DNA of 64,000 nt. Source: Methanofollis sp. W23 (GTDB lineage: Archaea; Halobacteriota; Methanomicrobia; Methanomicrobiales; Methanofollaceae). Position numbers and translations under genes: made by a program. The stretch is from contig NZ_JAGGMN010000001.1 in assembly GCF_017875325.1 (NCBI RefSeq), positions 2,500,140 through 2,564,139 of the forward strand, read 5' to 3'. The notes beneath the pieces are model-generated. The model saw nothing but the letters and a program-made list of their open reading frames with translations. It made no database searches and was not told where the DNA came from. Positions within the stretch are counted from its first letter, which is position 1. Every line of letters starts with the position of its first letter. This document shows positions 33,902 to 59,404 of the stretch, piece after piece.

Positions 33902-34324
33902 TCACTCAATCCTCACCGAAACATTCACATCTCGTTTCGCATCCGCCCCATCTGTGGTGAACTCCGAGTTCTCGATCACCAGGTAATGTGTGCCATAATG
34001 AGGGAGCGTATAGGTAAACTCCTTTGAGACCACATCTCGATAAATTACTGCTTTCCAGGTGTCTTGCGTACTGTTCTCAAACGCCTTCTTGTATTTGATA
34101 TAATTCGCTCTATTAAAGACGAGGAGATCGACCGGCGCTCCATCGGTATTTATTTCAATGCTAAAACTGGTCCCTTTCTCGCCCCAGAGTTCATAGACAT
34201 AAAGATAATCATACGGCACATCGACGCTCGCAACAACCGGCTCAAGGGTAGTGCCAGTTCCTGTGCAGCCAGCAATTAAAACTGTTCCAATAAGCAAAAG
34301 AACAATCAAGAGGGGTCTGGTCAT
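33902..34324 (-). CDS. predicted surface lipoprotein, unknown function
   Basis: 140 residues beginning with a signal peptide and lipobox (LLLIGTVLIAGC), so the mature protein should be anchored by a lipid-modified cysteine at about residue 19. The mature part is beta-rich: SVDVPYDYLYVYELWGEKGTSFSIEI and a closing segment THYLVIENSEFTTDGADAKRD that could be an Ig-like or jelly-roll domain. No family recognised. The base composition is less G+C-rich than core genes. Isolated gene with repeat-filled flanks. Confidence 0.75.
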   Translation of the reverse strand: MTRPLLIVLLLIGTVLIAGCTGTGTTLEPVVASVDVPYDYLYVYELWGEKGTSFSIEINTDGAPVDLLVFNRANYIKYKKAFENSTQDTWKAVIYRDVVSKEFTYTLPHYGTHYLVIENSEFTTDGADAKRDVNVSVRIE

Positions 34325-34943
34325 ATGATGACAATATTTTTACGGCAATGTATTGTTTTCGATTTATATCTGGGCCTGGATCAGCATCTCAAATTGAATG
34401 CCAGGCTTCTGCATAGAGATGGCTCCTCTTGATACATCATTGGGCTCTGTAGAAATCATCCTGGTCCTTCAGGGTGGCGAGGGGGTGCACCCCTGGTCCC
34501 CCCGCTGCATGATTGGTCGAGGACGGCACCACTCTCGTCACAGTTGTCCATTCTGCCTTCCCCCCCCATCGTCACCCTGAGGTTCTGGGGGCACCGCGCC
34601 CCTGGCCAAATATGGTGGAAGGCGGATGAGTTGCGCTCACACCACACAATAGGTGAGGGGTTCTACAAGGCCCATCATTGAGAATGTTCCCCTGTCCCTG
34701 GCACCATTCAAGAAGGCACCGGTGTTGGTTTTATCCTCGGAAGCCCGCTTGAAGTGATCGGTCAAGCCCTGGATGGCATTGGGACATGCTCTTGTACTCT
34801 CTCTGGCCGGCACTTGCCTTGAAAGTCCTGACCATAGGGTTCAGTCCTGAAGATATCCCGCGAATCCACACCCACAGATGTGAAGAAAAAAAGATCCTCC
34901 GTTCGCCCCGAAAAAATAATATCGGGAAGAATATTCTGAAACC
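34325..34943. repeat. intergenic region containing MITE copy C
   Basis: No convincing gene. Contains the well-preserved element at 34443-34673 and, beyond it, about 270 bases without recognised features up to the glutamine synthetase stop. Confidence 0.55.
34443..34673. mobile_element. MITE-like element, 231 bp, copy C, with 8-bp target duplication
   Basis: Starts GGCTCTGTAGAAATC and ends GGTTCTACAAGGCC, imperfect inverted repeats. It is flanked by a perfect octamer CATCATTG at 34435-34442 and 34674-34681, the mark of transposition. Inside are the shared segments GGTCGAGGACGGC, TCTGCCTTCCC, a G+C hairpin (TGGGGGCACCGCGCCCCTGG) and AAGGCGGATGA. Confidence 0.75.
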
Positions 34944-36449
34944 TTACGCCACGTGCATGAACCGGTCGACCAATTCCCTGATCGCGTCCTTGTCACCGTA
35001 GAGCTTCTCGCTGAGCCCCTTGTCCTCGAAGCCCTTGAGCGACTCCACCCTGCTGTCGATCATGCCAGCAGGGAAGATCCCGTTCTCCTCGAAGATCGCG
35101 CGCTTTGCAAGGAGAGCATCGGCCGACTCCCAGCACGAGGCCGGGAGCTGATCGAGTTTGTCCAGGCGGTCGCGGAACTCGGGCTTGAAGATGTTCACGT
35201 CGACATAGAGCTTCTTGGCCAGGTCAAGGGCATTGGGCATGTTGATCCCGCGCAGCGAGGCGACGATGAGTCCTGCGATCATCAGGTAGGGATCGGCCGA
35301 GCCGTCAGGGACCCTGAACTCGATCGTCTGCTTGGACGGGCGCTCCGCCTTGATACCGACATCGTACGGGTTGGCGTCCTGGGTCATGCCGTTGGCACCG
35401 ATCCAGCCCAGAGGCACGCGGACCACGACCGAGCGGTTCCGGTCGCCCCAGCAGATGCTGGTGGGCGCCTCCTGGTGCGGGACCAGCCTGAAGTATGAGG
35501 TCGGGATCGTGTCGCCAAAGGCGGTCAGAGCGTCGGCGGCGTCGAGGATGCCGGCGACCATCTTTCTGGCCATCGGGCTCAGTTTCCCGCCCTCGACCAT
35601 CAGGTTCTGGCCGTCCTTCTCGACGAGCATGTGGAAGTGCATCCCGCTCCCCGCCTTGCCAACGGTGATCTTGGGGGCAAAGCTGATCTCGACGCCGTAC
35701 TGGTAGCCGAGCATCCGCAGGATCCACTTCGCGATGATCAACTGCTCTGCGGCCTCCTCGACCGGCATGGGCAGGAACTCGATCTCGTGCTGTTCAAAGT
35801 ACTGGTCCTCGGTGGTGAAGCACCCGACCTCGGAGTGGCCGTATTTGATCTTGCCCCCCGCCTTTGCGATCAACCGCATCGCCTCGGTCCGCAGGTCCTC
35901 GAACTTGGCGAAGGGTGCGGCGGCATGGTAGCCCTTCTGGTCGAGGCCAGGATAGAGATCCTCGCGCTCGCTGATCACATAGTACTCCAGTTCGCCGAGG
36001 GTCTTGAAGACCCCGCCGGTCTGGTTCGTGAACTCCTCGTTGGCCTTGCGCAGGACATACTCGGGCGCGCTCTCCAGGGGCTTGCCCTCGTAGTCGTAGT
36101 ACGAGCAGAGGATCTCGAGTGTCGGCACCTCGGTAAATGGATTGACAAAGGCGGTCCGGTAGCGCGGGATCACGTACAGGTCGCTGCTCCCTGCTTCAAT
36201 AAACGAGAAGATATTGCTCCCGTCGACCCGCTCGCCGTCGGAGAGGATGGTGTCAAGGTGCTCCTTCGAAGAGATGATAAAATTGAGCGTCTTGAGTTTG
36301 CCGTCCTCCGCGGCATAGCGGAAATTCACCATCTCGATACCATTTTCATAACAAAAACGAATAATATCGTCTTTGGTAAATTCTGACGACGGCTTCTTGA
36401 GGAAGCGGACAAGGTCGTTTGGGTTCATCAAGATCTCAGAGTCTTTCAT
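34944..36449 (-). CDS. glnA: glutamine synthetase family protein
   Basis: 501 residues with the glutamine synthetase fold; makes glutamine from glutamate, ammonia and ATP. Visible are an N-terminal beta-grasp (GIEMVNFRYAAEDGKLKTLNF), a LGELEYYVI strand with metal-binding glutamate, GSGMHFHMLVEKDG (ATP/metal site), SICWGDRNRSVVVRVPL and TIEFRVPDGSADPYLMIAGLI. It is about 55 residues longer than the common archaeal type I enzyme. It may be a glutamine synthetase-like ligase rather than the main GlnA. ATG 36449 has no Shine-Dalgarno site; ATG 36428 is an alternative. Single gene between repeat regions. Confidence 0.85.
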   Translation of the reverse strand: MKDSEILMNPNDLVRFLKKPSSEFTKDDIIRFCYENGIEMVNFRYAAEDGKLKTLNFIISSKEHLDTILSDGERVDGSNIFSFIEAGSSDLYVIPRYRTAFVNPFTEVPTLEILCSYYDYEGKPLESAPEYVLRKANEEFTNQTGGVFKTLGELEYYVISEREDLYPGLDQKGYHAAAPFAKFEDLRTEAMRLIAKAGGKIKYGHSEVGCFTTEDQYFEQHEIEFLPMPVEEAAEQLIIAKWILRMLGYQYGVEISFAPKITVGKAGSGMHFHMLVEKDGQNLMVEGGKLSPMARKMVAGILDAADALTAFGDTIPTSYFRLVPHQEAPTSICWGDRNRSVVVRVPLGWIGANGMTQDANPYDVGIKAERPSKQTIEFRVPDGSADPYLMIAGLIVASLRGINMPNALDLAKKLYVDVNIFKPEFRDRLDKLDQLPASCWESADALLAKRAIFEENGIFPAGMIDSRVESLKGFEDKGLSEKLYGDKDAIRELVDRFMHVA

Positions 36450-38829: not shown

Positions 38830-38943
38830 CCAGGCTCACTGTTTCTGCCTGCCGTTTATCCTTGATATAATGTGCGGAAGTGTCCCTGGAGATATATGGA
38901 AAAATCTCTAAGTGATGAAGAAGACTGGATGATCGGTGATAGC

Positions 38944-39861
38944 ATGCTGAGAAAATATACCACCCTGCTCGTCGTCCTGCTCTTTGCTGGAATGATCGCC
39001 ATTGCCAGCGCAGCAACCAACGATGATGCCCAGGTCGGCGGGGACAAAGGCTACTTCACCGTCCACTGTAATGTGGACGGGGCGAAGGTCTACTTTGACG
39101 ACGACCTGAAGGGCGAGATCAAAGATGGCCGTCTTCTTGTAGAGGTCTATACGACCGCGACTCCGTACAAGACGATCAGCGTCGAGGCGGAGGGCTACCA
39201 GACGCACACCGCCCCCATCCTGGAGTACCCGGCAAAGGACCAGACCGTGGATATCAGGGTGACCCTTGAGCAGGCCCCCATCGGCGGGGACAAAGGGGCA
39301 TACCTGGTGAAGTGCAATGTCGACGGGGCAAAGGTCTACTTTAACGACGACCTGAAGGGCGAAGTCAAGGACGGAGAACTCCTGGTCGAGGTCTACACCA
39401 CCGGCACCCCGTACACGATGATCAGCGTCGAGGCGGACGGCTACCAGACCTACACCGCACCGATCGAGACCTACCCTGCCAAGGGGGAGACCGTCGAGGT
39501 CGACGTCACCCTTGAACAGGCCCCCATCGGCGGGGACGTGGGGGCGTTCCTGGTGAAGAGCAATGTCGAGGGCGCTGCAGTCTTCTTCGACAGCGACCTG
39601 AAGGGCGAGATCAAGGACGGAGAACTCCTGGTCAGGGTCTACACCACCGCCACGCCATATAAGGCGATCACCGTCGAGGCACCTGGCTACCAGCCTTTGA
39701 CCGTGGAGATCGAGCAGTACCCGGCCAAGGGGGAGACCGTCGAGGTCGACGCCACGCTCACGCCTGAACCGACGCAGACTCAGACGCCGCTCTCATTCTT
39801 CCCGGTCCTCGGAGCGCTTGCGATCTGCGGTGCACTCTTCCTGGTCGGCAGGAAAAACTAA
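38944..39861 (+). CDS. secreted/surface protein with three PEGA-like repeats
   Basis: 305 residues: signal peptide (1-23, ending ASA), then three near-identical beta-domains at about 32-110, 113-191 and 194-272, and a C-terminal transmembrane anchor (LGALAICGALFLVGRKN). Each domain reads NVDGAKVYFDDDLKGE...LLVEVYTT.TPYKTISVEAEGYQ, like PEGA domains, which are found on archaeal and bacterial surface proteins. Start taken at ATG 38944 with GGTGAT before it; longer starts add a non-signal extension. Its end overlaps the next gene tail to tail. Confidence 0.85.
   Translation: MLRKYTTLLVVLLFAGMIAIASAATNDDAQVGGDKGYFTVHCNVDGAKVYFDDDLKGEIKDGRLLVEVYTTATPYKTISVEAEGYQTHTAPILEYPAKDQTVDIRVTLEQAPIGGDKGAYLVKCNVDGAKVYFNDDLKGEVKDGELLVEVYTTGTPYTMISVEADGYQTYTAPIETYPAKGETVEVDVTLEQAPIGGDVGAFLVKSNVEGAAVFFDSDLKGEIKDGELLVRVYTTATPYKAITVEAPGYQPLTVEIEQYPAKGETVEVDATLTPEPTQTQTPLSFFPVLGALAICGALFLVGRKN
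39037..39765 (+). repeat. three tandem 243-bp coding repeats
   Basis: The three 81-codon units of the surface-protein gene are highly similar at DNA level (for example GACGACCTGAAGGGCGA recurs in units 1 and 2, and CCCCATCGGCGGGGAC opens units 2 and 3). This points to recent in-frame duplication. Confidence 0.8.
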
Positions 39862-41631: not shown

Positions 41632-41960
41632 CTCTATATGAGAATTCTGAACCTGCAGGTTGGATATAGAATGGGCTCTGGAAAAACATTCTGGATGGTT
41701 CTCTCGGGTGGGATGCTGGCCGTTCGAAAATCATAGATTTTCTCGAACTCGCTCTCGCTCGTTCCCCCTGGAACCCCTGCGACACGATAGCTCGTGGACT
41801 GTAACGCACTTGTCATGGTAATCTATTCTGCCTTCCAGACCTCATCGTGGTTCCAGGGGTCCGGGGGCACGGCCCCCGGCACGAAGAGGGGGGAAGGCGA
41901 GGGAGTCGCGTTCACGCCAGGAACAGGTGAAGATCTCCACAAAACCAAAAAAAAGGAAGT
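41632..41960. repeat. intergenic degenerate repeat (copy E, about 41674-41947)
   Basis: GGCTCTGGAAAAAC at 41674 and GATCTCCACAAAACC ending at 41947 are decayed ends of the MITE family. Between them lie the standard pieces: ACGATAGCTCGTGGACTG, TCTGCCTTCC, a hairpin CCGGGGGCACGGCCCCCGG (41858-41880) and GGGGAAGGCG. The segment 41770-41890 is closely similar to 33020-33135. Confidence 0.5.
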
Positions 41961-43348: not shown

Positions 43349-43940
43349 AAAATTGTGGCGACCAACCAGGATTATGAATGGGGGGTGAGGAAAAACTCCC
43401 TGAAGTGTCTCATACGAAGTACACGCACGAGAGGTATTTTTAGCTCTGTAGAAACCCTCTGGATCTCTCTCTGGCGGGGGGCTTGGCCGCCCCCCGAACC
43501 CCCCGCCACACGAGAGGTCGTGGACGGCAGTCTTTCTTCAGGGAGGTCGAATATGCCTTCCCAGGCCCTATCATCATCCGGGGGTCCGGGCGGCACTCGC
43601 CCCCGGCACGAAGAGGTGGGAAGGGGGAGTCACGCGTGCACCCATAAAGGGTGAGGGTTTCTACAGAGCCGATTTTTGAGGTGTGAACTGAACGAACTTG
43701 AGAAGACGAAGTCTTCGAGGGTTCGGGGAGCAGCCGCCCCCCGATGAAATCTATATGCTCACGAATCCTTAGAATCGGGATCCCATCCCCGATCTCTCTT
43801 CATGTGAGGGCGAGACAAGAGTGAGCGGCAGCACGAAAAGACGAGGAATCTTCGAAGGTCGGCACCCTCACAGAACGATTTGAGAGCCTTCAAAGGATCT
43901 CTCCCGAGCAATAGCGGCCTGAAGAAAAGAGAGAGAAAGG
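43349..43940. repeat. intergenic region containing MITE copy F
   Basis: No gene seen. Holds the clean element at 43442-43670. From 43671 to 43940 the sequence has no recognised feature apart from purine-rich stretches. Confidence 0.55.
43442..43670. mobile_element. MITE-like element, 229 bp, copy F, perfect 17-bp inverted ends
   Basis: GCTCTGTAGAAACCCTC (43443-43459) is matched exactly in inverse by 43653-43669. Inside are the arm CTGGCGGGGGGC...CCCCCCGCCA and a second hairpin near 43580-43610. The flanks GTATTTTT and GATTTTTG are similar but not identical, so a decayed target duplication is possible. Confidence 0.7.
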
Positions 43941-50578: not shown

Positions 50579-50612
50579 TGTATTCCTGGGGCTTCGTGCC
50601 CCTTCTTTTTTC

Positions 50613-50844
50613 GACTTTGTAGAAATCCTCTTGATGAAGATCTCTGGCGGGGGGCTTGCCGCCCCCCAAACCCCCCGCCACACGATAGGTCGAGGATGGC
50701 GGCACTCTCGTCACAGTTGCCCGTGATGTCTTCCCACCCCTATCTTCGTCCCGGGGGTCCGGGGGCAGCGCCCCCGGCCGAAGAGGGGGGAAGGCGGGAG
50801 ACACATGTCTCACCCACACAATAGATGAGGGTTTCTACAGAGCC
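50613..50844. mobile_element. MITE-like element, 232 bp, copy G, with 8-bp target duplication
   Basis: Ends GACTTTGTAGAAATCCTC and, inverted, GGCTCTGTAGAAACCCTC. It is flanked by a perfect direct repeat CTTTTTTC at 50605-50612 and 50845-50852; the element appears to have jumped into the T-tract terminator after porD. Internally a first stem (GGCGGGGGG...CCCCCCGCC, 50642-50680) and a long second hairpin (50730-50793). Confidence 0.8.
50730..50793 (+). repeat. long G+C-rich hairpin inside copy G
   Basis: Four paired blocks in order: CTTCC/GGAAG, CCCC/GGGG, CTTCG/CGAAG and CCGGGGGC/GCCCCCGG around a three-base loop. The same arrangement, with compensating variation, is in most other copies, so the fold rather than the letters appears conserved. 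Confidence 0.7.
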
Positions 50845-51201
50845 CTTTTTTCAGAAATATCTCGACCGGTTGTGGAGAATCGTTCACAAATCAACTGTGT
50901 AGAATTGCTCATGAGGCAAGAACACATCTCAAGCATACGGGATGAAAATTTCTTGTCACGTGCTGTCTCATTTCAAGACAGAAAAATCGGTGGAGACCTC
51001 CCTCTCCTGCCGCCCCTCGGCTATCTTCGTCCGTGGGGGTCCGGGGGCACGGCCCCCGGCGCGAGACGGCAGGAAAAATTCTACGATGGGGGCGGCACGT
51101 CGGATCAGCACGCCTCCGCACATCAATCGTGCCGGGGGCTAGCACCCTGGAACCCCCGTGCATACCCTTTTTGACTCAGGCAGAGAGACCAGAGAGATAC
51201 G

Positions 51202-58707: not shown

Positions 58708-59404
58708 TGTCGTCCACCTCTGCCCGGTATCGGTCGGTCACCTATATCGCCCTTGCGGGAATGCAGGGCCATTCACCAGATCCGGATACCATGATCAGGA
58801 GAAAAGAGCGGGGGCAAGAGACTCCGGGATGCTGATTGTTGAGGCGCTGGAGATTTTCTCTTCTTGAATATGAATTGGGTTGAACACCCCTCTCCCTCGC
58901 AAACAATGAGCAAGGGACAGCGCCAACCTCTGAACGATTCCCTTCTCTGCCTTCCAGCCCCGATCGCAATCGTGGGGGTCCGGGGGCAGCGCCCCAGGCA
59001 CCGATGTTTGGAAAGGCATGATGATCAGACATGCCGCCCTCAAGTGCAGAATCTTCACCGCCGTCTCGCGCCGGGGGGCGAGCGTCCCCCGGACCCCCAC
59101 GAACAGAGGAGAGGCGTGGGCGGCAGGCTAAGAGATTTCTGCCTGTTCCCTGTCACAAGGAGAAGGATCAAGGATCGATCCTTTCACACTCTTAGAACTG
59201 CGATAAGAAATTTTTCAGCCGTCATGGCCGAGGCGTGAGATCCTACAGAGCCAAAAAAAGAGGATTTCTCGGCCCTGTAGAATCCCTTACCAATTCTCGG
59301 TGTACGCGCGATTCAACCGCCCCCCCTCATCTTCCCACAGGGGGCGGCACGCCCCCCACCAGAGATAAATGTCCAGAGGAATTCTACAGAGCCAATTTCT
59401 CCGG
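58708..59404. repeat. intergenic repeat region (copy I and other fragments)
   Basis: 58945-59060 carries an element core (CTGCCTTCCAG...GTCCGGGGGCAGCGCCCC...AAGGCATGATGATC) matching 3826-3935. 59070-59173 aligns in inverted orientation with 33766-33860. ATCCTACAGAGCC ending at 59252 is a right end without a clear left partner. 59271-59393 is a short complete element. No gene seen. Confidence 0.55.
59271..59393. mobile_element. short MITE-like element, 123 bp, copy I
   Basis: Starts GGCCCTGTAGAATCC and ends GGAATTCTACAGAGCC; the flanks are GATTTCTC (59263-59270) and AATTTCTC (59394-59401), a target duplication with one mismatch. An internal deletion of the 230-bp form that keeps both ends. 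Confidence 0.65.

Follow-up and report, generated by a model that had tools for sequence, protein, structure and literature searches.

Copy C of Methanofollis sp. W23: a 230-bp MITE with an 8-bp target duplication and a likely IS5-family driver

Copy C is a short repeat in the 64,000-nucleotide stretch of Methanofollis sp. W23 DNA analysed here, referred to as the window. We consider it a MITE that derives from an IS5-family insertion sequence (IS) with 8-bp target duplication and is itself non-autonomous, belonging to a family that expanded and then lost its driver, and we place the probability of this reading at about 94%. The limits of copy C follow from its terminal inverted repeats (TIRs) and its duplication, together with a genome-wide alignment of the family.

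34435..34442, no strand assigned: left 8-bp target site duplication CATCATTG, read directly
34443..34672, + strand: copy C, 230-bp non-coding MITE
34443..34455, + strand: left TIR GGCTCTGTAGAAA, the exact family consensus
34660..34672, − strand: right TIR GTTCTACAAGGCC, 3 of 13 positions mismatched to the consensus
34673..34680, no strand assigned: right 8-bp target site duplication CATCATTG, read directly

Both copies of CATCATTG are on the + strand, immediately outside the TIR pair, and the repeat is exactly 8 bp, with different bases before (A/C) and after (G/A) the two copies. The sequence-only reading had reported a perfect 8-bp duplication, as we also find, around an element of 231 bp in a footprint ending at 34681; the real values are 230 bp and 34680. 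Within the window CATCATTG occurs three times against 2.36 expected, roughly the chance number, so that the weight of the evidence lies in its position and not in its rarity. Exact 8-mer pairs at the spacing of copy C were encountered at 3 of 200,000 random window positions (about 1.5 × 10−5), which bears out the earlier judgement that chance was an unlikely source of the flanking octamer. Copy C is short and lacks a transposase open reading frame (ORF), and its non-coding core is GC-rich. Folding of its DNA revealed no excess structure relative to shuffled sequences (z = −0.42) and an Rfam scan of the window returned two tRNAs only.

The pooled TIR of the family is GGCTCTGTAGAAAYCCTC. Ends matching GGCTCTGTAGAAA with at most one mismatch number 483 in the W23 genome (2.9 Mb, 99.7% complete), compared with two for the reversed control pattern, and correspond to about 240 elements, a figure that rises once worn ends are included; at least 46 relatives of copy C are among the matches listed for this genome. 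By size the full elements group at approximately 121, 155–190, 230 and 440–655 bp, none of which carries a transposase gene. Features by which MITEs are recognized are present here: no transposase ORF, TIRs (imperfect in copy C), a constant 8-bp duplication, dispersed copies, ends in common with an autonomous element carried by congeners and, for sister copies, empty sites before insertion. Sister copies in the window include the following.

41674..41946, + strand: sister copy, right end approximate, duplication decayed; missing from the orthologous locus of two relatives, G004 and G005
43442..43670, + strand: sister copy, 229 bp
50613..50844, + strand: sister copy of 232 bp, flanked on each side by the exact duplication CTTTTTTC
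59271..59393, + strand: short sister copy of 123 bp with the duplication GATTTCTC/AATTTCTC (7 of 8 positions)

Across the genus the number of TIR ends is 645 in Methanofollis sp. STE_20 (G001, a sister genome that is 81% complete), 483 in W23, and 164, 120, 92, 41, 33 and at most 11 in the others. In STE_20 two MITEs, different from copy C, adjoin each other without a gap on the downstream side of glnA (L048:1090–1490). Elsewhere, MITEs lie inside another dispersed repeat (L079:14028–14482 and L080:9325–9555; ...GCAATATGATATTTTCATCCCGTATGCTTGAGGCG...) that is also abundant in G004 and G005. The viral contigs scanned contained no match to the MITE pattern, and a search of a plasmid collection gave no identity for the 37-kb second contig.

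A search of the genus with DDE_Tnp_1 (PF01609) located a candidate partner for the family.

L110:1444–2451 (genome G005): partner IS of 1008 bp with ends GGCTCTGTAGAATTCCT and GGCCCTGTAGAAACCCT, flanked on either side by the exact duplication GAACAATC

Its transposase of 305 amino acids scores 237 bits against the IS5 model NF033579 (cut-off 140) and 76.7 bits against PF01609. Asp117, Asp190 and the Y(2)R(3)E(6)K signature (Y239-R242-E246-K253) are conserved in three intact copies, and no solved structure was similar by sequence to this transposase. At L110:1426–2343 and L136:1168–2088 the open frame of the transposase continues across the terminal repeat and ends at a stop codon supplied by the host sequence, which gives each insertion a different C-terminus. 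A decayed copy of the IS (L113, genome G009) retains exact ends and the duplication CGAAAATC; across the order the IS occurs in 33 of 150 genomes and 16 of 35 genera. The IS5 family includes an ISH1 group, which duplicates 8 bp, and an IS903 group, which duplicates 9 bp. The partner IS is probably ISH1-like, the 8-bp duplication being the sole fit. No homology was detected between the cores of the MITE and the IS; the link between them therefore rests on the imperfect ends of about 17 bp (17–18 bp) and the 8-bp duplication that they have in common. Judged by these sequence features, a 1008-bp IS5-family element of the L110 type, with the same TIR, is the likely driver of the family, and copy C was, we infer, moved by this element or by one closely related to it.

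Under this scheme all that copy C would have kept is the pair of transposase-recognized ends GGCTCTGTAGAAAYCCTC, enclosing a non-coding core rich in GC. A full-length IS would supply the DDE transposase in trans, which would bind both ends and cut out or copy the element, presumably by cut-and-join chemistry. Insertion would follow at an AT-rich target cut with an 8-bp stagger, and repair of the gaps would leave CATCATTG on both sides. In this Methanofollis lineage the family would have reached about 240 copies or more before the driver was lost from W23.

In the W23 genome itself the L110 transposase has no match, and PF01609 identifies one gene, which is interrupted and of another type. Relics of the IS persist, namely an 86-bp stretch at C1:476901–476986 (89% identity) and a deletion remnant at C1:1034536–1034632 with an intact TIR end and pieces of the transposase. 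With 483 TIR ends and IS relics but no intact copy, the family appears to be orphaned in its own genome, as judged from the transposase families searched, and is presumably now immobile there. Alternatively, an unseen transposase that cross-recognizes the ends might still be moving the family in W23, which would then not be orphaned. Sister copies are up to 94.7% alike, pointing to fairly late activity, duplications are often intact though the copies differ by 15–20%, and the families searched are only a part of the transposases that might act. We nevertheless regard such a driver as unlikely, given that the only PF01609 gene is interrupted and that the partner has left relics in a genome where its transposase has no match.

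A driver from the IS6 or IS1595 family is considerably less probable again. These elements also generate 8-bp duplications and have similar G-rich ends starting with GGC; archaeal IS6 members with 8-bp duplications are tabulated in PMC6807381, and PMC3852290 lists an archaeal MITE of IS1595 type with DR 8. However, PF13610 and PF12762 are without a match in 12 of 12 genomes of the genus, with positive controls, whereas the genus does contain an IS5-family element with identical ends that duplicates 8 bp. The absence of these transposases from the 12 genomes already largely rules out both families.

The derivation of copy C from an 8-bp-duplicating IS5-family element also agrees with the behaviour of the family as a whole. 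Left and right ends were paired in 861 kb of the W23 genome, comprising the window and 40 further stretches; this sample was partly chosen for known copies, which biases density but leaves the duplication test unaffected. Exact 8-bp duplications flank 25 of the 85 TIR pairs shorter than 400 bp, compared with 0.35 expected from shuffled flanks, and duplications matching at seven or eight positions flank 44 of the 85, compared with 1.36. The signal is confined to offset 0 and length 8. Target preference is symmetrical, roughly G/C-A-W-W-W-W-T-C/G (57 duplications matching at seven or more positions), and the duplications are 69% AT, as against 40.5% in the 861-kb sample. CATCATTG agrees with this consensus at seven of its eight bases.

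Empty sites were sought in relatives under strict limits against repeat-to-repeat matches. The 232-bp sister copy at L101:8643–8874, with exact CTGAAGTC on both sides, is absent from G004 and G005, and it splits a reading frame that is uninterrupted in both; the intact G005 protein matches Pfam Aminotran_1_2. The insertion point is close to the beginning of a class I/II aminotransferase gene, and the frame beyond it also looks worn. The insertion and the worn frame together indicate that the gene is probably a pseudogene in the species to which W23 belongs. The copy at L100:9397–9728 is likewise absent from G004 and G005, with 1.4 kb of flank aligned, as is the window copy at about 41674–41946, of which the duplication is worn. 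For copy C no empty site was seen: downstream of glnA the relatives align only from window position 34883 onward, and the flanks of copy C matched no other repeat suitable as a paralogous empty site. At the place corresponding to window 50605–50620, G004 carries CTTTTTTC followed by a TIR end (GGCTCTGTAGAAT), beyond which the sequence is a different one; this is probably an older shared insertion that has since eroded.

Taken together, the duplications, the target preference, the empty sites of sister copies and an IS5-family element with the same ends make transposition of these repeats well supported. The sequence-only reading had put copy C forward as the cleanest proof that they moved in this way. 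Movement is upheld by the duplications and empty sites of the family, but L101:8643–8874, which combines an exact duplication with empty sites in two relatives, is the better case, because the right TIR of copy C has three mismatches and copy C is among the most diverged full-length copies. That the CATCATTG pair is a coincidence, and the family a REP-like intergenic repeat spread by recombination or duplication, draws on parts of the core (the GC-rich arms; positions 110–187; window 51006–51074) that recur without TIRs elsewhere in the genus, but the idea retains a negligible probability, being refuted at the family level by the duplication statistics and the sister empty sites and opposed by the exact length of 8 and the target preference.

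The MITE that we take copy C to be lies between two genes on the opposite strand.

33902..34324, − strand: predicted lipoprotein, 140 amino acids, LIAGC lipobox; copy C is 118 bp upstream of its start
34944..36449, − strand: glutamine synthetase glnA; copy C is 271 bp past its stop codon

A TATA-like ATATAAAT falls between copy C and the start of the lipoprotein gene, a position which suggests that the insertion probably spared the core promoter. No ortholog of the lipoprotein was found within the genus; a relative with 42% identity occurs in another family of the order (G012). This distribution suggests gain by transfer or multiple loss. The nearest neighbour of copy C is 79.6% identical, compared with a family median of 86.7% and a best value of 94.7%, and with divergence this high the intact duplication does not make copy C recent. 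Further along the window, a surface-type protein is encoded at 38872–39861 with three near-identical repeats (GGDKG...VDGAKVYFDDDLKGEIKDG) and self-matches at 39035–39759.

The kind of element is already known (an IS5-type MITE), while the family itself is apparently undescribed: the available text of PMC3852290, PMC10969869 and PMC6807381 holds no mention of it, and a literature search on Methanofollis and insertion sequences found nothing relevant. Its copy number is above every archaeal MITE figure in the available text of PMC3852290 and PMC10969869. We suggest, tentatively and with some doubt, that this may be the largest recorded archaeal MITE expansion, strongest in one Methanofollis clade, which either outlived its IS5 driver or is still moved by an unrelated transposase. 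If so, the family would be an example, open to dating, of a MITE burst after which the driver was lost, whichever view of the transposase holds. An octamer first picked out by eye has in this way led to a methanogen MITE family documented in its ends, duplication length, target preference and partner IS, and also in its expansion within one clade, its disruption of a gene and the apparent loss of its driver. The high copy number makes it a usable system for studying how MITEs amplify and what becomes of them once the transposase is gone.

The exact 13-bp ends GGCTCTGTAGAAA are also found on elements of 223–248 bp in Methanoregula, Micrarchaeota, Woesearchaeota and Nanoarchaeota. The cores of these Methanoregula and DPANN MITEs have no detected similarity to that of copy C, and the identical ends point to a common IS5 end type and not to common descent of the core. 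Three Woesearchaeota elements (L169:6978–7200, L170:2337–2560 and L176:3090–3328) carry the same ends with exact 9-bp duplications (GCTTTGAGC, GCAGTTAAA and TAAACGAGG); Methanoregula and one Micrarchaeota element have these 13-bp ends with 8-bp duplications, so the stagger differs. A separate Methanoregula MITE of 248 bp (L172, L178 and L194) has the same ends and 8-bp duplications, and its copies are 92–93% alike across two MAGs of different origin.

Among known systems, the partner IS resembles IS5-family insertion sequences (NCBIfam NF033579) in its length of about 1 kb, its single DDE transposase and its Y(2)R(3)E(6)K signature; copy C differs in lacking a transposase. Archaeal IS5-related MITEs are described in Kamoun et al. 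(2013; PMC3852290) for M. barkeri (ISMba19), M. acetivorans (ISMma12/ISMac15) and M. burtonii (ISMbu10). Like the copy C family they are short and non-coding, and they have 15–17 bp ends in common with IS5, but they number 5–24 copies with DR 0 or 3, in contrast to the approximately 240 elements with DR 8 found here; archaeal MITEs as a whole are given there as 2–34 copies. Minnick (2024; PMC10969869) gives archaeal figures of 25–44, for the SM families of Sulfolobus solfataricus, and more than 120 copies for Correia and up to 711 for ERIC. These last two resemble the copy C family in their hundreds of intergenic copies and their size variants; they are bacterial, whereas the copy C family is archaeal.
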